DNA of 62,069 bases. It comes from a virus. A program made the position numbers and the translations under genes. Numbering within the stretch: position 1 is the first letter of the stretch; every line of letters begins with the position of its first letter. The DNA lies in IMG/VR virus record IMGVR_UViG_3300030099_006113, positions 6,105-68,173 of that record. One strand, written 5' to 3'. The notes beneath the pieces were generated by a model. That model was not told the DNA's origin. It saw nothing but the letters and a program-made list of their open reading frames with translations, and ran no database searches. Positions 24,203 through 62,069 of this stretch are shown in pieces.

Positions 24203-24249
24203 GACCACAGATGAAGTACAGGCCAAGCATCAGTACTTCATCTTTGGTC
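24203..24249. terminator. bidirectional terminator between convergent operons (phage A)
   Basis: A 17-base arm (24,203-24,219) pairs with 24,233-24,249 with a single mismatch around a 13-base loop. It is followed by TAGTTTTCTTCTTC on the plus strand and overlaps the stop codon of the last minus-strand gene. Placed exactly where the early and lysis operons meet. Confidence 0.85.
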
Positions 24250-24917
24250 TAGTTTTCTTCTTCGCTTTCTTCTTTGCCTTTACCTTCTTCGGCATTGTTT
24301 TCTTCTTGCCCTTCATAAAACCATTTTTCATCATAGCAATAGTTCCTTGATGTGTTTGAGTAGTACACTTCTTCACAGGCTTCCCAGTCGGGCGGGCCCT
24401 GTATCTTGGTCAGAGACTGGTCTGTCCATAGTATCCTATTGTTGGGCATTGAACAGTATTGCCCGTTCTCTAGCGCTAGCACGTTTTGGCTTTTATGTTC
24501 TCTCGGCACGGATGCACATGTTGGCATTAAATGGCCATCTGCATCACACTGGTCGATAGTGCAGATGTATGTGCCATTGATTAGTTCGTTCCCAATCTTT
24601 ACCTTCGCATCAAGATGCCTAAGAGCGTCTTTAACAATCGTAGTGATATACCAGGTATCAATATCCCAAAGAGCCAAATCAGACTGCTTAAACCTAAGAT
24701 CGCCTTCTCTGTCGTGGACAAAGGCCTCAATGGGTAGCTTGTCATAGAGCGCGCCGTTTTCTAGCAGTGTCTCAAAGAGAAGCGCTCTGTGCTTCTGGGC
24801 TTTAACGCTAACCCAGTACCCCTTGATAAAATCGCCGTGACCCTTTTTTTGATTGTACAAAAATTCTTTGCGAACCCACAAGGGTTCTAATGGCAAGTTT
24901 GCTACGAGGAAGCTCAC
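24249..24917 (-). CDS. conserved phage protein SFLVANLPLEP family, 222 aa (phage A)
   Basis: The N-terminus SFLVANLPLEPLWVRKEFLYNQ and later blocks (KGYWVSVKAQKHRALLFETLL, ALYDKLPIEAFVHD, ENGQYCSMPNNRILW) define a family common in aquatic phages and of unknown function. GTG 24917 with upstream GGAGTTGGCC aligns with the GTG start of the B gene (58,726-59,457). The Glu/Lys/Asn-rich C-terminal tail is low complexity. Last gene of the lysis operon in A; in B another gene follows. Confidence 0.8.
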   Translation of the reverse strand: MSFLVANLPLEPLWVRKEFLYNQKKGHGDFIKGYWVSVKAQKHRALLFETLLENGALYDKLPIEAFVHDREGDLRFKQSDLALWDIDTWYITTIVKDALRHLDAKVKIGNELINGTYICTIDQCDADGHLMPTCASVPREHKSQNVLALENGQYCSMPNNRILWTDQSLTKIQGPPDWEACEEVYYSNTSRNYCYDEKWFYEGQEENNAEEGKGKEESEEEN

Positions 24918-24932
24918 GGCCAACTCCTATAT

Positions 24933-25139
24933 CTATTTTGACTTACGACGCTTGCGCTTCCCTTGCGCGACGCGGGACCGCTCAACAGCCTTAACATCTA
25001 TTTTTTCACCCCTCTTATAAGCTGCGGCGGTGCGTTTAATTTCGGCCGCTTTGGCGCGAGGACTCTTAGCGCCTAAAGTGTATTTCGCCGGAACGCCATG
25101 CTTATAGGGCTGCTTACGCTTTCTTTTTTTTCTTACCAC
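24933..25139 (-). CDS. small Lys/Arg-rich protein, 68 aa (phage A)
   Basis: Starts with a basic run (VRKKRKRKQPYKHG), has the block GVPAKYTLGAKSPRAKAAEI typical of tiny phage proteins, and ends KRKRRKSK. GTG 25139 overlaps the end of the preceding gene; GGAGAGGCGGCG lies upstream. Its charge suggests nucleic acid or virion binding. It occupies the slot taken in B by the 84-residue basic protein (59,454-59,708). Confidence 0.7.
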   Translation of the reverse strand: MVRKKRKRKQPYKHGVPAKYTLGAKSPRAKAAEIKRTAAAYKRGEKIDVKAVERSRVAQGKRKRRKSK

Positions 25140-25371
25140 CGCCGCCTCTCCTCAAATCAGTGTCATGTTTTTTTGAGCCGCGAATGTAACTATTTACTCG
25201 ACCCATCGCCCACGCAGCCATCGGTACGTTGCGGCTTCCGCTACTCAAATAGGCGGCCTGACCGCGCTTATACACTTTACGAAGCGTGGCGACACTGTGT
25301 CCGCTCTTTGATGCCTTTGCTCTTAACTGGGCGGCAACACTGCCGCCCGATTTCTTTTTCTTCACTGCCAT
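25114..25371 (-). CDS. small Lys-rich protein, 85 aa (phage A)
   Basis: Begins MAVKKKKSGGSVAAQLRAK and carries a KSGHSVATLRKVYKRGQAAYLSSGSRNVPM-type block (landmarks only) ending in a Gly/Lys run. ATG 25371 lies one base after the stop of the previous 58-residue gene, whose product shares the MAVKKKK start. Strongly basic; part of a chain of tiny basic proteins. Function unknown. Confidence 0.7.
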   Translation of the reverse strand: MAVKKKKSGGSVAAQLRAKASKSGHSVATLRKVYKRGQAAYLSSGSRNVPMAAWAMGRVNSYIRGSKKHDTDLRRGGGGKKKKKA

Positions 25372-25372
25372 G

Positions 25373-25549
25373 TCATCGTCCAACTTTTTTCATGGCCAAC
25401 TTATGCGCTGCCGTAAAGGTTTTCCCGCCCCTCATCGATTTTCGCATTTCCGACATGTGTTTTTTTGTGTGATGGGCACTGTGTTTTTTTAGGGCAGACT
25501 CTTGTCTGCTTGTAAGTTTTTTCTGGGCTTTCTTTTTCTTCACTGCCAT
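25373..25549 (-). CDS. tiny Lys/His-rich protein, 58 aa (phage A)
   Basis: ATG 25549 to TGA 25,375-25,373; too short for usual cutoffs but fits exactly between neighbours (CACC after the previous stop, one base before the next ATG). The sequence includes LTSRQESALKKHSAHHTKKH and a C-terminal FTAAHKLAMKKVG, a pattern I know from small aquatic-phage proteins. Basic, helical, function unknown. Confidence 0.7.
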   Translation of the reverse strand: MAVKKKKAQKKLTSRQESALKKHSAHHTKKHMSEMRKSMRGGKTFTAAHKLAMKKVGR

Positions 25550-25553
25550 GGTG

Positions 25554-25817
25554 TCACCAATTCTTGCACGACCAGTAACGGGCCGTAAGTTTTGAGGGTG
25601 GCTTGCTGTCGCATTTGTGTCGGGCCCGAAAAGACTTGCGTCTGGCCGGACTGCTTTTTTTAATTCTCATATTGGGATCGCCAAATCTAATCGTCTTGGT
25701 CTTATTGCCTTCCTTGGCAACAACGACAAACTTCTTTGGCCCACCCGGTGTCCGCTTCGGACGATTGTAGGCCCTGACTCCCGCGCGAGCAAGCTTTGGG
25801 TCTTTCTTCTTTGGCAT
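25554..25817 (-). CDS. small basic protein, PKKKDPKLARAG family, 87 aa (phage A)
   Basis: ATG 25817 overlaps the stop of the peptidoglycan-enzyme gene (TGATG) and follows GGAGGAG. PKKKDPKLARAGVRAYNRPKRTPG at the start and SPARRKSFRARHKC...LTARYWSCKNW at the end define a phage family with two conserved Cys. The B relative (40,778-41,065) sits in the tail operon instead, so this gene has moved between operons. Possibly a DNA- or virion-associated protein. Confidence 0.8.
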   Translation of the reverse strand: MPKKKDPKLARAGVRAYNRPKRTPGGPKKFVVVAKEGNKTKTIRFGDPNMRIKKSSPARRKSFRARHKCDSKPPSKLTARYWSCKNW

Positions 25818-26383
25818 CACCACTCCTCCAGCAACGTATAGCTAAACGACTTATATCCCAGAGTAGCTATTTGCATTCGCGCCAGGCGCATCATTTCATC
25901 AAAGTCTGATTCGTTCGCCAGTACTTGGCAACCAGCTGACCATCTATCTACGCGAGTAGAATGTTCGCCCGCTTTGTGAAGATTAATACCAAAGAAGCCA
26001 GTATCCACATCGCCCTTCATGTCGAGATTTCCGTCCCTGTCAGCATCGCGCCATACAGTTACTTCGCCACCCCTTTGGCATAGGGCTTCGTATTTGCCAG
26101 CGTGTGAATCTATTTCCCAGATACCAGGATAATGACCAGGGCACAGGATAGCGGTGCCTTTTACTTGAAGAGGGTTGAGCAGGTAGTATTGACCAGGGTC
26201 AGTCGTTGCTGTCCAATAATGCGCCATCCACTGACCGCCCTGCCTGTACGTGCATGTCAGCATGTCGTCGAACTTGTTTGGCGCACCGTTTCTTTTTCGC
26301 ACACCTACAATATTCAGATCGTATTGGCCGTCGAAGACAGGGTGACCCATCGCCTTCTTCCGCGCTAGTATTGGGGGCAGCAT
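25817..26383 (-). CDS. putative peptidoglycan-acting enzyme (endolysin-like), 188 aa (phage A)
   Basis: Contains FFGINLHKAG followed by DRWSAGCQVL, reminiscent of the His...Ser-x-Gly-Cys active-site arrangement of L,D-transpeptidase/carboxypeptidase-like lysis proteins. An earlier RDADRDGNLDMKGD stretch could bind calcium. It follows the holin gene, so it is the best endolysin candidate. ATG 26383 immediately follows the stop of the -1 frame extension of the holin. The B copy (60,031-60,597) differs at few residues. Confidence 0.75.
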   Translation of the reverse strand: MLPPILARKKAMGHPVFDGQYDLNIVGVRKRNGAPNKFDDMLTCTYRQGGQWMAHYWTATTDPGQYYLLNPLQVKGTAILCPGHYPGIWEIDSHAGKYEALCQRGGEVTVWRDADRDGNLDMKGDVDTGFFGINLHKAGEHSTRVDRWSAGCQVLANESDFDEMMRLARMQIATLGYKSFSYTLLEEW

Positions 26384-26611
26384 CTAAAACCTCCACTTGA
26401 GTCCTGCCGTTGTCTGCCAATTCAATGCCTCGTTTATTTCTACGCCCGCATCAACGAACGCGCTTAGTCCCTCAGTAATTTCGCCACTAACTGACGCAAA
26501 GGCTTCGGCGCGTACTTCAGAAGAAGAAGAGCCGAGAACACGTAAGCCGAGGTCAAGAGCACCACCAGATACGTCCCTTGCCGCAACGGCATCCCTTATT
26601 CCTCCGGCGAC
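26384..26611 (-). CDS. -1 frame extension of the holin, 75 codons (phage A)
   Basis: After slippage at A-AAA-AAG the -1 frame reads VAGGIRDAVAARD onward for 75 codons to TAG at 26,386-26,384, directly before the endolysin ATG. The frame has no ATG, GTG or TTG before its last 15 or so codons, so it is unlikely to be made alone. Between A and B (60,598-60,825) most base changes fall in the third position of this frame, and about 60 of 75 residues agree. The product ends in LKWRF. The fused protein would be about 148 residues: a holin with an added C-terminal domain of unknown role. Confidence 0.75.
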   Translation of the reverse strand, partial: VAGGIRDAVAARDVSGGALDLGLRVLGSSSSEVRAEAFASVSGEITEGLSAFVDAGVEINEALNWQTTAGLKWRF

Positions 26612-26829
26612 TTTTTTACCTGTGACACCGCCTCCGCAGACGCAAGGGCTCGTTTTACTGTGGCCCTAGACTGAGAGTAGCTGGCCCCACAAACAGCAGC
26701 TAGGATAGGTCCGCCAACTTGAGCCCACTGTGAGTCGGAGAAGATGGCACAGAGGATGCCACCGCACATTCCCAGAAGGGTCATTAGGAACTCTGAACTC
26801 CTCAGGCCATTAGTCTTGCCTTGAATCAT
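26596..26829 (-). CDS. holin, zero-frame product, 77 aa (phage A)
   Basis: Two hydrophobic segments (FLMTLLGMCGGILCAIF and VGGPILAAVCGASYS) separated by a SDSQWAQ turn and followed by a charged tail, the class II holin plan with the common WAQ...YSQSRATVK ending. It overlaps the upstream coiled-coil gene by 20 bases and lies before the endolysin candidate. The frame ends at TAA 26,598-26,596, but a slippery A-AAA-AAG four codons before the stop allows a -1 extension. Confidence 0.85.
   Translation of the reverse strand: MIQGKTNGLRSSEFLMTLLGMCGGILCAIFSDSQWAQVGGPILAAVCGASYSQSRATVKRALASAEAVSQVKKSPEE
26611..26635 (-). promoter_or_regulatory. -1 ribosomal frameshift signal in the holin gene (phage A)
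   Basis: Slippery heptamer A-AAA-AAG (26,617-26,611) in the correct phase (GTA AAA AAG), with an internal Shine-Dalgarno sequence GGAGG (26,635-26,631) 13 bases upstream. E. coli dnaX uses the same heptamer and an upstream Shine-Dalgarno stimulator. I see no strong conserved downstream hairpin. The same elements at the same spacing occur in B. Confidence 0.75.
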
Positions 26830-27100
26830 CTCGCTCTCTCCTGTCCCGCTCTACTGCGTCTTTGATATCCATGCGGCGAATAATTTCATACGTATTGCTT
26901 AACGCCTCGCGCGTCTTTTCGCTTACGTCGTTAACCCTGTCACTCAATGCCTCAATCTTTTCTTCGTTGACTGCTAGCTTAGACGCCAACCCGTTACCGT
27001 TATGCTTCGGGTTTCGCTTGTCACTGAATCGCTCGGCTAGGCGCATCCCAACAACGATTGCCGCAACAACGCCCCCGCCGAGTGCCGATTCAGGGTCCAC
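26810..27100 (-). CDS. membrane-anchored coiled-coil protein, spanin-like, 96 aa (phage A)
   Basis: GTG 27100 (VDPESALGGG) is preceded by GAGGG and lies one base after the upstream stop; B uses the same GTG at 61,314. A short hydrophobic segment (GGGVVAAIVVGMRLAERF) is followed by a long charged coiled coil (VNEEKIEALSDRVNDVSEKT). One membrane segment plus coiled coil beside holin and endolysin suggests an inner-membrane spanin or lysis accessory protein, by analogy only. Confidence 0.75.
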   Translation of the reverse strand: MDPESALGGGVVAAIVVGMRLAERFSDKRNPKHNGNGLASKLAVNEEKIEALSDRVNDVSEKTREALSNTYEIIRRMDIKDAVERDRRERDDSRQD

Positions 27101-27101
27101 G

Positions 27102-27347
27102 TCAGCCCTCGCTCGCCGTAGCGTCTTCAACCGTGTGGCCGCCTTCGGACATCTTGGCTTTTAGCGCTTCAATAGCGCTATCAATCAGCGATGTAACGCC
27201 TTCACCTTCAAGCGGTAGGTTGACGCCGAAGCGCGTATTGTCGACTTCAGGAAGTGTCGCAATCGCTTGGCATGATGCACTGACGCCGCCATCTGCAATT
27301 GATTTTGTAATAGTCACCTGTACGGTGTGTAAGGTTTTAGTCGCCAT
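27102..27347 (-). CDS. small conserved protein, 81 aa (phage A)
   Basis: Beta-rich start (TLHTVQVTITKSIADGG), a middle segment ATLPEVDNTRFGVNLPLEG, and a helix SLIDSAIEALKAKM before a charged end. It overlaps the tail-fibre stop by 11 bases (ATGGCGACTAA). The B copy (61,316-61,561) is almost identical. Position after the tail fibre and before the lysis genes could mean a fibre-assembly or virion protein; unproven. Confidence 0.75.
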   Translation of the reverse strand: MATKTLHTVQVTITKSIADGGVSASCQAIATLPEVDNTRFGVNLPLEGEGVTSLIDSAIEALKAKMSEGGHTVEDATASEG

Positions 27348-28851
27348 TTTTTAGCTCCTGAATTTGAGTATGCATTTCTTGCAAGGCTTTTGTTAAGACT
27401 GCAACTAAATGCCCGTAAGACATCGACTTGCTGCCGTTTTCACCGAACACAACTTCGGGAATAATTTGCTCTACTTCTTGAGCAATAAAACCGATGTCTG
27501 CTTGGCCTGTTTTTTTGTAATCGTAACCAACGGGCCTTAGCTGCAAAACAGTTTCAAGGCCGTATGGAATTGTCTCAATATCGGACTTTAACGCAATGTC
27601 GGAAGCATCTGTGAATACTCCGGCAGCCGTTAGTTTTGCACCGCTGTCGTCAAGAATTGAATCACCAGTGCCTGCATTTTGAATTTCCAGTGCAACGGGA
27701 TTGTTGGTCGAATCATTTTGATCAACAACGACACAGGGCACGTTAGCGCCATCCGGGCAGTTGACTTGAAGTTGCCCGCTTGCATCAACACACTCGTGAT
27801 TTACGCCAAGCTTGTGATCATGGTCTACATTTATCGCAACCGAGTTTTGCATAATCAGAAAAAACATGTCGGCGTTGGTCCCGCCGCCATGCGTGTAGCG
27901 CAACTCTCCCGCCATCGAGTTTTGCGGATCTCCGAATGCAATTGTGTTGCGCGAAGTATTATTGCTTAGAAGTGAAATCCCTGGATGCGTGTTAGCCTCA
28001 ATAACCAGCATGTCTGCATGAGTGTTTGCGGAGCCGATTCCGGTGTCATCTTCTTTGATGTGGATTCCATTTGACGCGCAGATAGGCGAGCTTTCGGAAC
28101 CTGTGCTTAGTTTGCCACCGTCGAAAATACGGATAACGCTATCGTTTTGAATTCGAAGCCGCTCTGAGTTTGCAACTTGAAGCCTCAGTGAACCGGTGCC
28201 CTGATCGAAGGCTATTCCATCCGGTGTGCCACCAGTATTCTCATCGATAAAATACAGGCAGCCTTTGCCGTTTGTAGGTGTCAGGATTGAAATGCCTGTG
28301 TTGCCGCTGCCCTCCACAATCAAATCATCAGCGTCTGCATGGACGTCGCTAGAGGTTGCGGCTGAGTCGCCGGTTTTAAGGTGCAGCGAGCCCGCACCAC
28401 TGCCAAGACTGGTGGTCTCGCCGCCCGTCGTAATTTTACCATCTTGAAACACAGCCAAGTGGGTAGCGCTGTCGTTTGCAATCCCAAAGTTTGCGCCGGA
28501 GGATTTTAATCTGAATGCGATGTCGCCTTGAGATATTCCGAGAATGCCGTTTGAGCCTGCGCCGCTTACGTTTAAAACTGTAAAAAAATCATTTGTTGCG
28601 CCGCTCGGATCAGCCTCGACTCGAAACTCGCCATCAACGCTCAGAGTTCTAGAAAACGTAGGTTCGCCAATGTGAACATGCGCACCACCGCCCCCTAGAA
28701 TTACCCTTTCGGCTGAATCAGTGGTGTCAATTGCTAGGTAATTTTTATCGTCAATTGAATCAATCTCAAGCGCAGTGGTGTTGTTATCAGGAACAGCAAT
28801 AGTGCCCCCGCCAAGCGCGTTACCAAAGATAACTATATTTGCATCTGCCAT
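27337..28851 (-). CDS. tail fibre/spike with C-terminal S74 chaperone peptidase, 504 aa
   Basis: The long middle part is rich in Gly, Asp, Ser and Thr with beta-repeat character (LRLQVANSERLRIQNDS; ILGISQGDIAFRLKSSG), as in trimeric fibres. The last 88 residues match the S74 intramolecular chaperone: S417 in SDIALKSDIE with K422, then LRPVGYDYK, ADIGFIAQEV and a C-terminal coiled coil. The domain trimerises the fibre and then cuts itself off at the Ser. The 77-bp repeat (27,779-27,855) lies in this gene, so its N-terminal part may belong to genome B and its C-terminal part to A. Confidence 0.85.
   Translation of the reverse strand: MADANIVIFGNALGGGTIAVPDNNTTALEIDSIDDKNYLAIDTTDSAERVILGGGGAHVHIGEPTFSRTLSVDGEFRVEADPSGATNDFFTVLNVSGAGSNGILGISQGDIAFRLKSSGANFGIANDSATHLAVFQDGKITTGGETTSLGSGAGSLHLKTGDSAATSSDVHADADDLIVEGSGNTGISILTPTNGKGCLYFIDENTGGTPDGIAFDQGTGSLRLQVANSERLRIQNDSVIRIFDGGKLSTGSESSPICASNGIHIKEDDTGIGSANTHADMLVIEANTHPGISLLSNNTSRNTIAFGDPQNSMAGELRYTHGGGTNADMFFLIMQNSVAINVDHDHKLGVNHECVDASGQLQVNCPDGANVPCVVVDQNDSTNNPVALEIQNAGTGDSILDDSGAKLTAAGVFTDASDIALKSDIETIPYGLETVLQLRPVGYDYKKTGQADIGFIAQEVEQIIPEVVFGENGSKSMSYGHLVAVLTKALQEMHTQIQELKNGD
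27779..27855. repeat. 77-bp exact direct repeat, left copy (genome joint)
   Basis: Identical to 61,993-62,069, the last 77 bases of the window. Base 27,778 is G where 61,992 is A, so identity starts exactly there, and it runs to the end of the sequence. A length of exactly 77 matches a common assembler k-mer, which suggests that 27,856-62,069 is a closed circle and that the joint to A is a graph artefact or shared node. Confidence 0.9.
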
Positions 28852-58747: not shown

Positions 58748-59457
58748 TTATTATCTCCTAGTATCCCATCTTCTTGCTGGTTTTCTTTTTTGGCATTGTT
58801 TTCTTCTTTGCCTTTTTCTTTACCTTCTTCATTGGCTTGCTCTTCATCGCCTTCATAGAACCATTTTTCATCATGACAGTAATTCCTTAATGTGTTTGAA
58901 AAGTATACTTCTTCGCATGCTTCAAAGTCTGGTGGACCTTGTACTTTGGTTAGACTTTGTTCAGTCCAGAGAATTCTGTTGTTAGGCATTGAGCAGTATT
59001 GGCCATTCTCTAGGGCTAGTATGTTTTGGCTCTTGTGCTCTTTAGGTATAGATGCGCATGTTGGCATTAGCTCTCCGTTGGCATCACATTGATCTACAGT
59101 GCAAATGTATGTACCGCCAACTAGCTCGTTCCCAATCCTTACCTTTGCGTCAAGGTGCCTAAGAGCGTCTTTAACAATCGTAGTAATAAACCAGGTATCA
59201 ATATCCCAAAGAGCAAGATCAGACTGCTCAAACCTAAAATCGCCTTCTCTGTCGTGGACAAAGGCCTCAATGGGTAGCTTGTCATAAAGAGCGCCATTCT
59301 CGAGTAAAGTCTCAAACAAAAGAGCTCGATGTTTCTGGGCCTTAACGCTTACCCAGTAACCCTTCATGAATTCTCCATGGCCTTTCTTTCCATTGTAAAG
59401 GAATTCCTTCCTTACAAAGACAGGCTCAAGGGGTAAGTTTGCTACTAAAAAACTCAC
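58726..59457 (-). CDS. conserved phage protein SFLVANLPLEP family, 243 aa (phage B)
   Basis: GTG 59457 overlaps the previous stop (GTGA). SFLVANLPLEPVFVRKEFLY, the KGYWVSVKAQKHRALLFETL block and ENGQYCSMPNNRILW match the A protein (24,249-24,917) closely. The C-terminal tail is again a Lys/Glu/Asn-rich low-complexity segment but longer. Function unknown. Confidence 0.8.
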   Translation of the reverse strand: MSFLVANLPLEPVFVRKEFLYNGKKGHGEFMKGYWVSVKAQKHRALLFETLLENGALYDKLPIEAFVHDREGDFRFEQSDLALWDIDTWFITTIVKDALRHLDAKVRIGNELVGGTYICTVDQCDANGELMPTCASIPKEHKSQNILALENGQYCSMPNNRILWTEQSLTKVQGPPDFEACEEVYFSNTLRNYCHDEKWFYEGDEEQANEEGKEKGKEENNAKKENQQEDGILGDNKWQTTQS

Positions 59458-59708
59458 TTCCTGTGTCTCCTGGTTTTTTTAGCAATCTTCTTTGGTTGCT
59501 TGCTATGCTGCTTGCCCTTCTTAGTGTCTGCCCTTTTCTTTCTTGATGTGGCAGCATACTCGGAAGCAGAGAGAGACTTGATCGCAGATGTCGGGAGATA
59601 TCTTTCACCAGTAGCCTTTGGACCCTGAGTACTAGGCTTACCTGATTTAGTTCTCCACTTTTGCTTGCCCCATTTTTTAAGGCTTTTCTGTGGTTTCTTA
59701 AGGGCCAT
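59454..59708 (-). CDS. small Lys-rich protein, 84 aa (phage B)
   Basis: KSLKKWGKQKWRTKSGKPST, TGERYLPTSAIKSLSASEYA and a C-terminal KKTRRHRK belong to a basic phage/virus family (DUF5872-like, from memory). The A operon has a different basic protein in this slot. Likely a nucleic-acid- or virion-associated protein. Confidence 0.75.
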   Translation of the reverse strand: MALKKPQKSLKKWGKQKWRTKSGKPSTQGPKATGERYLPTSAIKSLSASEYAATSRKKRADTKKGKQHSKQPKKIAKKTRRHRK

Positions 59709-59710
59709 AT

Positions 59711-59839
59711 CTATTTCTTCTTTTTCTTGGAAACCTTCTTCTTTTTCCTGGAAATACCCTCAAGCGTCTTAGCCTGTGAAGCATGCAGCTTTGATGCTTT
59801 TTTTAGGCCCTTGATTACTTTTTTAATTTTTTTTTGCAT
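59711..59839 (-). CDS. tiny Lys-rich protein, 42 aa (phage B)
   Basis: ATG 59839 overlaps the previous stop (TAATG), TAG at 59,713-59,711, two bases before the next ATG. Sequence IKKVIKGLKKASKLHASQAK and a Lys-run end. The pattern resembles tiny aquatic-phage proteins. Exact fit between neighbours supports it. Confidence 0.65.
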   Translation of the reverse strand: MQKKIKKVIKGLKKASKLHASQAKTLEGISRKKKKVSKKKKK

Positions 59840-60030
59840 TAGTTTTTATAACCTCCGCCAGCGGCTTTGTATTGCTTAGCCAGCATTTGAGCTTTTCTTG
59901 CAGACCATTGGCCTGGTTTACCACCTTTTCCGCCTGCTTTGATTTTATTGAAAAGCCTTTTACGCATAGCTGGCTTTGTATAGTTGCCAGACTGATTGAC
60001 TTTGCTTTTTGTTTTTCTCTTTGCAGCCAT
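59839..60030 (-). CDS. small basic protein, SARKAQMLAKQYKAAGGGYK family, 63 aa (phage B)
   Basis: ATG 60030 directly follows the TAG of the endolysin-type gene. KSKVNQSGNYTKPAMRKRLF and QWSARKAQMLAKQYKAAGGG define a family common in aquatic phages, of unknown function. In A the PKKKDPK gene takes this place. Confidence 0.75.
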   Translation of the reverse strand: MAAKRKTKSKVNQSGNYTKPAMRKRLFNKIKAGGKGGKPGQWSARKAQMLAKQYKAAGGGYKN

Positions 60031-60597
60031 CTACCATTCCTCAAGTAGCGTGTATGAGAATGACTCACAGCCGAGTGTAGCTATTTGCATTCTTGCAAGC
60101 CTCATCATCTCATCGAAGTCTGACTCATTAGCCAATACCTGGCAACCAGCAGACCATCTATCTACTCTTGAGCTGCTTTCACCTGCTTTATGACAATTGA
60201 TTCCAAAGAAGCCAGTGTCCTTTGGTCCATTCATATCTGCCTGGTTGTCCCTGTCGGCATCTCTCCATACGGTAACTTCGGCTCCTCTTTGGCAGAGTGC
60301 TTCATACTTGCCAGCATGTAAGCCAATCTCCCATACTCCCGGGTAATGGCCAGGGCAGAGTATTGCTGTTCCTTTTATTTGTAGAGGATTTAGCAGGTAA
60401 TACTGACCAGGATCAGTAGTAGCGGTCCAGTAATGAGCCATCCATTGGCCACCCTGGCGATACGTGCAGGTTAACATGTCGTCGAATTTGTTTGGCGCAC
60501 CGTTTTTTTTTCTCACACCTACAATGTTGAGATCGTATTGTCCGTCGAAGACAGGGTAACCCATCGCCTTCTTCTGGGCTAATATTGGGGGCAGCAT
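60031..60597 (-). CDS. putative peptidoglycan-acting enzyme (endolysin-like), 188 aa (phage B)
   Basis: Nearly identical to the A protein (25,817-26,383), with FFGINCHKAG and DRWSAGCQVL as the His...Ser-Gly-Cys motif; note Cys beside the His here where A has Leu. ATG 60597 follows the stop of the -1 frame extension without gap. Likely endolysin of the operon. Confidence 0.75.
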   Translation of the reverse strand: MLPPILAQKKAMGYPVFDGQYDLNIVGVRKKNGAPNKFDDMLTCTYRQGGQWMAHYWTATTDPGQYYLLNPLQIKGTAILCPGHYPGVWEIGLHAGKYEALCQRGAEVTVWRDADRDNQADMNGPKDTGFFGINCHKAGESSSRVDRWSAGCQVLANESDFDEMMRLARMQIATLGCESFSYTLLEEW

Positions 60598-60825
60598 CTA
60601 AAACCTCCACTTTATTCCTGCCGTTGTTTGCCAATCTAAACCTTCATTCAACTCTATGCCTGCATCAACAAAGGCACTTAACCCTTCAGTAATTTCTCCG
60701 CTAATCTCTGCAAAGGCTTCGGCGCGTACTTCAAAAGCACTAGACCCGAGAACACGTAAGCCGAGATCAAAAGCACCGTTAGACGCGTTCCTCGACTTAA
60801 CGGCATCTCTTATTCCTCCGGCGAC
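60598..60825 (-). CDS. -1 frame extension of the holin, 75 codons (phage B)
   Basis: Reads VAGGIRDAVKSRN onward to TAG at 60,600-60,598, the same length as in A, ending IKWRF. No start codon is available in the frame near its beginning. Codon-by-codon comparison with A shows mostly third-position changes (for example GAC/GAT, GCG/GCA, GGA/GGG, TTC/TTT, CAG/CAA), so this frame, not the overlapping ATG frame, is under protein-level selection. Confidence 0.75.
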   Translation of the reverse strand, partial: VAGGIRDAVKSRNASNGAFDLGLRVLGSSAFEVRAEAFAEISGEITEGLSAFVDAGIELNEGLDWQTTAGIKWRF

Positions 60826-61043
60826 TTTTTTACTTGAGACACAGCCTCCGCAGATGCAAGAGCTCGTTTTACTGTAGCCCTGGATTGAGAGTAGCTAGCC
60901 CCACAAACAGCAGCTAGGATAGGCCCTCCGACTTGAGCCCACTGGGAATCGGAGAAGATGGCACAGAGGCAACCACCAATCATACCTAATAATGTCATTA
61001 GGAACTCTGAACTCTTAAGGCCGTTAGTCTTGCCTTGAATCAT
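60810..61043 (-). CDS. holin, zero-frame product, 77 aa (phage B)
   Basis: Two membrane segments (FLMTLLGMIGGCLCAIF and VGGPILAAVCGASYS) and the same QVKKSPEE tail as A. Differs from A mainly at LKS/LRS and Ile/Cys positions. Stop at 60,812-60,810, with the slippery site four codons earlier. Confidence 0.85.
   Translation of the reverse strand: MIQGKTNGLKSSEFLMTLLGMIGGCLCAIFSDSQWAQVGGPILAAVCGASYSQSRATVKRALASAEAVSQVKKSPEE
60825..60849 (-). promoter_or_regulatory. -1 ribosomal frameshift signal in the holin gene (phage B)
   Basis: A-AAA-AAG at 60,831-60,825 in the GTA AAA AAG phase, with GGAGG (60,849-60,845) 13 bases upstream, exactly as in A, although the bases between differ at several positions. 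Confidence 0.75.
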
Positions 61044-61314
61044 CGCGTTCTCTCCTATCCCGCTCTACTGCGTCTTTGATATCCATGCGGCGAATAATCT
61101 CATACGTATTGCTCAACGCCTCACGCGTCTTGTCGCTTACATCGTCAACCCTGTCGCTTAACGCCTCTAGCTTTTCCTCGTTAACCGCTAGCTTAGATGC
61201 AAGTCCATTGCCGTTATGCTTTGGGTTTCGCTTGTCACTGAATCTTTCGGCCAGGCGCATGCCTACAACGATTGCCGCAACAACGCCCCCGCCGAGTGCC
61301 GATTCAGGATCCAC
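61024..61314 (-). CDS. membrane-anchored coiled-coil protein, spanin-like, 96 aa (phage B)
   Basis: GTG 61314 (VDPESALGGG), one base after the previous stop. GGGVVAAIVVGMRLAERF then the coiled coil VNEEKLEALSDRVDDVSDKT; almost identical to A. Overlaps the holin gene by 20 bases. Confidence 0.75.
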   Translation of the reverse strand: MDPESALGGGVVAAIVVGMRLAERFSDKRNPKHNGNGLASKLAVNEEKLEALSDRVDDVSDKTREALSNTYEIIRRMDIKDAVERDRRERDDSRQD

Positions 61315-61315
61315 G

Positions 61316-61561
61316 TTAGTCCTCGCTTGCCGTTGCGTCTTCGACGGTGTGGCCGCCTTCGCTCATTTTGGCTTTTAGCGCGTCAACGGCACTGTCAATT
61401 AGCGATGTGACGCCGTCGCCTTCAAGCGGTAGGTTAACGCCGAAGCGCGTGTTGTCCACTTCAGGTAGCGTTGCAATTGCTTGACATGATGCGCTTACGC
61501 TGTTGTCAGCGATTGATTTAGTGATAGTCACCTGGACGGTGTGTAAGGTTTTAGTCGCCAT
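61316..61561 (-). CDS. small conserved protein, 81 aa (phage B)
   Basis: TLHTVQVTITKSIADNSVSA and the FGVNLPLEGDGVTSLIDSAV block match the A protein (27,102-27,347). Overlaps the fibre gene stop by 11 bases. Function unknown. Confidence 0.75.
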   Translation of the reverse strand: MATKTLHTVQVTITKSIADNSVSASCQAIATLPEVDNTRFGVNLPLEGDGVTSLIDSAVDALKAKMSEGGHTVEDATASED

Positions 61562-62069
61562 TTTTCAACTCCTGGATTTGGCCATGCATCTCTTGCAGGG
61601 CGCGGGTCAAGACAGCAACCAGATGCCCGTAAGACATCGACTTGCTGCCGTTTTCGCCAAAAACAACCTCGGGAATAATTTGCTCAACCTCTTGAGCGAT
61701 AAAGCCGATGTCTGCTTGGCCGGTTTTTTTGTAGTCGTAACCAACGGGCCTTAGCTGCAAAACAGTTTCAAGACCGTAAGGGATTGTCTCAATGTCAGAC
61801 TTTAACGCAACGTCAGAAGCATCCGTGAAAACTCCGGCAGCAGTTAGCTTTGCACCGCTGTCGTCAAGGATTGAATCACCAGTCCCTGCATTCTGAATTT
61901 CTAGTGCAACGGGATTGTTGGTCGAATCATTCTGATCGACAACGACACACGGCACGTTGGCGCCGTCCGGGCAATTGACTTGCAGCTGCCCACTTGCATC
62001 AACACACTCGTGATTTACGCCAAGCTTGTGATCATGGTCTACATTTATCGCAACCGAGTTTTGCATAAT
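61551..62069 (-). CDS. partial tail fibre, C-terminal part with S74 chaperone domain (phage B)
   Basis: The frame enters from the right edge and covers the last ~172 residues: fibre sequence, then SDVALKSDIETI with the catalytic Ser/Lys, LRPVGYDYK and ADIGFIAQEV. If 27,856-62,069 is circular, the missing N-terminal part is at 27,856-28,851, giving a complete gene across the joint. Confidence 0.85.
   Translation of the reverse strand: MMQNSVAINVDHDHKLGVNHECVDASGQLQVNCPDGANVPCVVVDQNDSTNNPVALEIQNAGTGDSILDDSGAKLTAAGVFTDASDVALKSDIETIPYGLETVLQLRPVGYDYKKTGQADIGFIAQEVEQIIPEVVFGENGSKSMSYGHLVAVLTRALQEMHGQIQELKNGD
61993..62069. repeat. 77-bp exact direct repeat, right copy (window end)
   Basis: Identical to 27,779-27,855 and ends exactly at the window end. 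The base before it (A at 61,992) differs from the left copy. See the left copy for interpretation. Confidence 0.9.

Follow-up and report, generated by a model that had tools for sequence, protein, structure and literature searches.

A small membrane-protein gene next to a viral endolysin, here called ORF1, is very likely decoded by programmed -1 frameshifting, and it is very probable that this decoding, function apart, belongs to a three-product architecture comprising ORF1, a fusion of ORF1 to a -1-frame extension, and an overlapping short frame, ORF2. By sequence comparison among relatives, the slippery heptamer, the -1 frame and ORF2 are all conserved. The first-pass annotation had proposed that a frameshift fuses a conserved C-terminal domain to a holin and that the product could tune lysis timing as an antiholin does; comparative sequence strongly supports the frameshift and the conserved domain, whereas nothing specific supports the antiholin role, and ORF2 was missing from that account.

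The window, meaning the whole stretch of 62,069 nucleotides that was analysed, covers positions 6105-68173 of a source contig (G000) of 68,173 bases, in which two related phage genomes, A and B, of about 34 kb each lie collinear and head to tail. One tail-fibre gene of phage B is split by the contig ends, which would fit either a circular contig of two genomes or a chimeric assembly. The lysis regions of the two phages (24237-27855 in A and 58783-62069 in B) are 80-85% identical in DNA, far closer than most of their structural proteins, which share only about 25-50% of residues, suggesting exchange of the lysis module. In phage A, the locus sits on the minus strand between tail fibre-like and endolysin genes. 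ORF1 (26829-26596) encodes a 77-aa holin-like membrane protein with a strong first and a weak second predicted transmembrane (TM) segment; the extension (26384-26611, 75 codons plus TAG) would complete a fusion of about 148 aa; ORF2 (26464-26592), which starts just past the ORF1 stop and overlaps the extension, encodes 42 aa in the zero frame; and the endolysin (25817-26383, 188 aa) matches phrog_3000 (E 9e-35) and the endolysin family phrog_33083 (1.9e-17). Phage B carries copies on the same strand of ORF1 (60810-61043, with A AAA AAG at 60831-60825), the extension (60598-60825) and ORF2 (60678-60806). Also adjoining the lysis genes is a small upstream protein (26810-27130, minus strand) with one predicted TM segment and a coiled-coil-like tail; a similar type of gene precedes ORF1 in four relatives (L012, L052, L034 and L029), and its product is a possible partner resembling an inner-membrane spanin or XhlA. 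Past the endolysin lies a run of short ORFs very rich in lysine and arginine (24933-25823, minus strand), three of which match PHROGs of unknown function, and near the lysis genes a 224-aa product (24249-24923, minus strand) matches phrog_3704, annotated 'ferredoxin' (E 1.6e-55).

That this is a lysis cassette is supported by the endolysins encoded after the extension, which are of two unrelated kinds: a phrog_33083-like enzyme in phage A and its close phage B copy, and M15 peptidases (phrog_894, PF08291) in L012 and L052. In these two relatives the unrelated M15 type, replacing the endolysin, lies at 4447-4869 of L031 (the L012 contig) and at 4199-4675 of L052. ORF1 looks like a holin in being a small protein with TM segments beside an endolysin, except in the L051-type group, where no endolysin is adjacent. 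For phage A the putative label 'holin' is drawn from size, predicted TM segments and position beside the endolysin; profile searches gave no match for its ORF1. An L051-type ORF1 weakly matches the holin family phrog_9987 (E 0.017). ORF1 itself is under purifying selection (dN/dS 0.07 in 12 gap-free close relatives), and its second TM segment is weak in the close groups (hydropathy 0.7-1.0).

How widely is the arrangement shared? A search of IMG/VR returned 14 close relatives first, and distant ones were then found via the extension and subsequently via two other ORF1 types. Together with phages A and B, 46 further distinct sequences make 48, falling into at least five sequence groups with three ORF1 types that have little sequence in common or none. 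No relatives were found in GTDB genomes or in 50,697 cultured phage records, one search of which gave chance-level matches only, and phage A ORF1, extension and ORF2 had no convincing match in PHROG or Pfam. In all 48, the ORF1 stop is preceded at 3-33 nt by an in-phase heptamer, and an extension of about 70-80 codons is present. In phage A the heptamer A AAA AAG (26617-26611, minus strand) stands in phase four codons before the stop, as first proposed: the gene ends ...CAG GTA AAA AAG TCG CCG GAG GAA TAA, with SPEE between heptamer and stop. The letters of the heptamer vary among relatives, with other X_XXY_YYZ sequences at the same position, and its place and the -1 frame are constant: G_GGA_AAG occurs 15 times, A_AAA_AAG 13, C_CCU_UUG eight, G_GGA_AAC four, A_AAA_AAA three (followed by AC or AG), A_AAC_CCC/U three, and C_CCA_AAG and C_CCU_UUA once each; the A_AAC_CCN sites were assigned by eye, as a scan limited to Y = A/T does not pick them up. 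Random synonymous recoding that keeps the protein yields any X_XXY_YYZ (Y = A/T) in the eligible stretch of phage A in about 5% of cases, and 2-21% per group, so chance does not account for a heptamer in 48 of 48 sequences from several groups, despite their non-independence. G_GGA_AAC and G_GGA_AAG are shift sites used in other viruses (PMC5009743). C_CCU_UUG, A_AAC_CCC and A_AAC_CCU are more poorly documented as shift sites, which counts against the reading.

The -1 frame bears the marks of a coding sequence. In phage A it is open from 26611 to a TAG at 26386-26384 that directly abuts the endolysin ATG at 26383, in agreement with the 75 open codons reported initially. Past the ORF2 stop, dN/dS among the 12 gap-free close relatives is 0.06 in the -1 frame versus 1.25 and 2.9 in the others, with an excess of third-position changes (P 1e-5). 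The L094-L114 group (18 members) gives 0.29 in the -1 frame versus 0.86 and 1.9; an ORF1 dN/dS from this comparison was discarded as invalid, indels having displaced its alignment.

ORF2 is probably a third conserved product with one TM helix. Within the extension, synonymous change in the 12 close relatives falls from 0.69 to 0.26 inside ORF2 (permutation P 5e-5), and because this drop indicates that ORF2 is itself conserved, three products are likely. Independently, third-position variability in the L094-L114 group is 0.15 over the ORF2 TM segment versus 0.39 and 0.42. ORF2 is also more hydrophobic than recoded controls that preserve the extension in all groups tested (P 0.0003-0.02; phage A, P 0.001). 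The signals at its start vary from one group to another, and in some members they are weak.

Candidate stimulatory signals flank the heptamer. The GGAGG placed 13 bases upstream by the first-pass annotation was located at 26635-26631 (minus strand), and ORF1 codons 65-66 (GCG GAG, forming GCGGAGG) are nucleotide-invariant in 13 sequences, whereas of 44 degenerate codons with an invariant amino acid only 5 are also invariant in DNA. Most other groups have GAGG-like bases ahead of the heptamer, with weak ones in L054 and L060. Downstream, a possible two-part hairpin in the close group (26546-26608, minus strand) has 92.6% of cells paired versus 29-53% for slid versions, with modest covariation and a weak single-sequence z score in phage A; downstream structure is weak in many members and strong in some only. 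In L088, L089 and L110, a long hairpin begins 5 nt after A_AAC_CCC, and its stem shows compensatory changes (CTGAACGC/GCGTTCAG, CTGACCGC/GCGGTCAG and CTGACTGC/GCAGTCAG). This hairpin is very stable (z -6.0 in L088 and -3.6 in L089), far more so than in other members.

What might the extension do? Its predicted form, an amphipathic beta-meander whose C-terminus is outer-membrane-protein-like, does not obviously suggest an antiholin domain. AF2 predicts a five-strand beta-meander for phage A (pLDDT 80.6) and for a second, divergent member sharing about 36% of residues or less (pLDDT 83.2), both modelled as the extension alone, the fusion being encoded in two frames, and the beta amphipathic moment exceeds that of shuffled sequences in all groups (z 2.1-5.4). 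The C-terminus has a W followed after a few residues by G[LIM][KRE] and a final aromatic residue (GLKWRF in phage A). It persists in L010 and L015, in which this stretch does not also serve as the Shine-Dalgarno (SD) sequence of the next gene. Such an ending resembles the C-terminal signal of outer-membrane proteins. In Foldseek searches with the extension, trimeric autotransporter anchors, porins and cyanophage OMP-like proteins headed the match lists or were frequent in them; no E value was below 0.001, and the top rows, YadA/Hia-like trimeric autotransporter anchors, had E above 0.1. The best VIA-align match against the PDB (Z 8) was generic, with outer-membrane proteins mixed with soluble beta proteins, and was therefore not taken as proof. 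No signal peptide is present. A simple pattern scan found no lipobox, the outer-membrane lipoprotein signal of spanins, in the products, and no candidate lies near the lysis genes on the same strand.

Our leading reading, favoured over holin timing though held tentatively, is that the fusion, made in small amounts, has a spanin-like role late in lysis, either working on the outer membrane or connecting the two membranes; the predicted beta-meander and C-terminus point to an envelope function no less than to an antiholin. Charges around the two hydrophobic segments of ORF1 favour a cytoplasmic C-terminus by the positive-inside rule, which argues against an outer-membrane role unless the weak second TM segment fails to insert. 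The missing signal peptide and lipobox, the non-significant Foldseek matches and the generic Z scores likewise count against it. The main competitor accepts the frameshift and makes the fusion an antiholin-like timer that joins holin oligomers and delays triggering, as the fusion, presumably a minority species with the entire ORF1 membrane domain, would be equipped to do. Holin and antiholin are made from one gene in lambda S105/S107. We consider this reading rather unlikely, since an inhibitor alone would not need an added domain: to our knowledge, the two members of a one-gene pair come from dual starts and are told apart by a few residues, whereas recoding here adds a conserved 75-aa beta domain with a near-invariant C-terminal motif, the likeness being confined to two products with a common membrane domain. 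The papers searched, in which subscription journals were largely uncovered, hold no precedent for a holin/antiholin frameshift.

The remaining alternatives dispense with ribosomal frameshifting. A standalone extension gene, translated from a start and ribosome-binding site of its own with no fusion, is very improbable. Such a gene would find a start in L011-L013, which have a -1-frame ATG at extension codon 5 or 6, preceded in L011 and L012 by AGAGG-like bases, and in some relatives with an early TTG or GTG. Yet these three keep G_GGA_AAG, as all ATG-bearing members keep a heptamer, and the frame is kept with no ATG, GTG or TTG near its start in phages A and B, L005 and the L051-type group; the frame in phage A, first described as lacking a usable start codon, has none of these codons until a TTG near its end. 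Relatives that had exchanged the heptamer for a start codon would have contradicted the original proposal; instead, another heptamer replaces A_AAA_AAG where it is missing, and most such relatives have no good start codon in the -1 frame. Still less credible is a fusion arising from RNA polymerase slippage: runs of six to nine A occur in some members, but most have GGGAAAG, CCCTTTG, GGGAAAC, CCCAAAG or AAACCCC, with runs of a few bases at most, which argues against slippage on long runs as the general cause, and all the heptamers permit tandem tRNA re-pairing in -1. A reading in which the second protein is really ORF2, with its SD-like sequence and conserved zero-frame TM segment, and the open -1 frame is accidental can be practically dismissed, since past the ORF2 stop the -1 frame alone is open and selected, and groups with little else in common retain the extension C-terminus.

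The system has partial counterparts elsewhere. E. coli dnaX likewise combines A_AAA_AAG, an SD-like element upstream and a possible hairpin downstream, but its shift yields a shorter product with no lysis role, whereas here the product is longer and the heptamers vary. In the tail assembly chaperone of lambda (G/GT), too, a small phage gene undergoes a conserved -1 shift close to its 3' end, at a site that varies among relatives; here the gene encodes a membrane protein beside an endolysin, and the locus is not just upstream of a tape-measure gene, so a tail chaperone of this type was rejected. If the outer-membrane reading is true, the fusion would resemble unimolecular spanins in being a single chain that touches both membranes, but it has no lipobox, its inner-membrane part comes first and its beta domain last, and its activity is putative. 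The Phage_OMP family (PF24653), a cyanophage OMP-like beta barrel, resembles the extension in its beta-meander and in ending ...GLKYKF, compared with GLKWRF. Membership was rejected, as the extension scores 13.6 bits against a gathering cut-off of 27, and the P-SSM4 member is a gene of its own with a signal-peptide-like start; in the records searched, PF24653 matched nothing apart from the cyanophage.

We propose that ribosomes translating ORF1 would reach the in-phase tandem slippery heptamer a few codons before the stop, where the shift is probably aided by the SD-like sequence upstream and at times by a hairpin downstream. Unshifted ribosomes would make the 77-aa protein and terminate beside the ORF2 start, possibly reinitiating on ORF2; a fraction would shift to -1 and make the fusion of about 148 aa, joining the ORF1 membrane domain to the 75-aa amphipathic beta domain, then terminate where the endolysin gene begins, and could go on to translate it by reinitiation. 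From these two endpoints we infer that the shift rate could set three outputs, so that one stretch of mRNA would determine the ratio of three membrane proteins of a lysis cassette. It is a speculative and rather doubtful further step to see here a new lysis system, in which a frameshift joins a holin to an outer-membrane beta domain and so makes a single-chain inner-to-outer membrane lysis protein at a low fixed ratio to the holin, along with a third lysis protein from the same bases.

Among dsDNA phages, the most familiar cases of conserved -1 frameshifting lie in tail assembly genes. Such a shift in a lysis cassette, with bases read in two frames and three predicted products, would, if true, mean that phages set the ratios of lysis proteins by recoding too. 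Standard gene finding would truncate ORF1 and miss the extension, which would explain how such genes are overlooked. The beta domain is a candidate for the outer-membrane step in phages in which no spanin was recognised here, and the holders of this layout form a large, widespread group of uncultured viruses.
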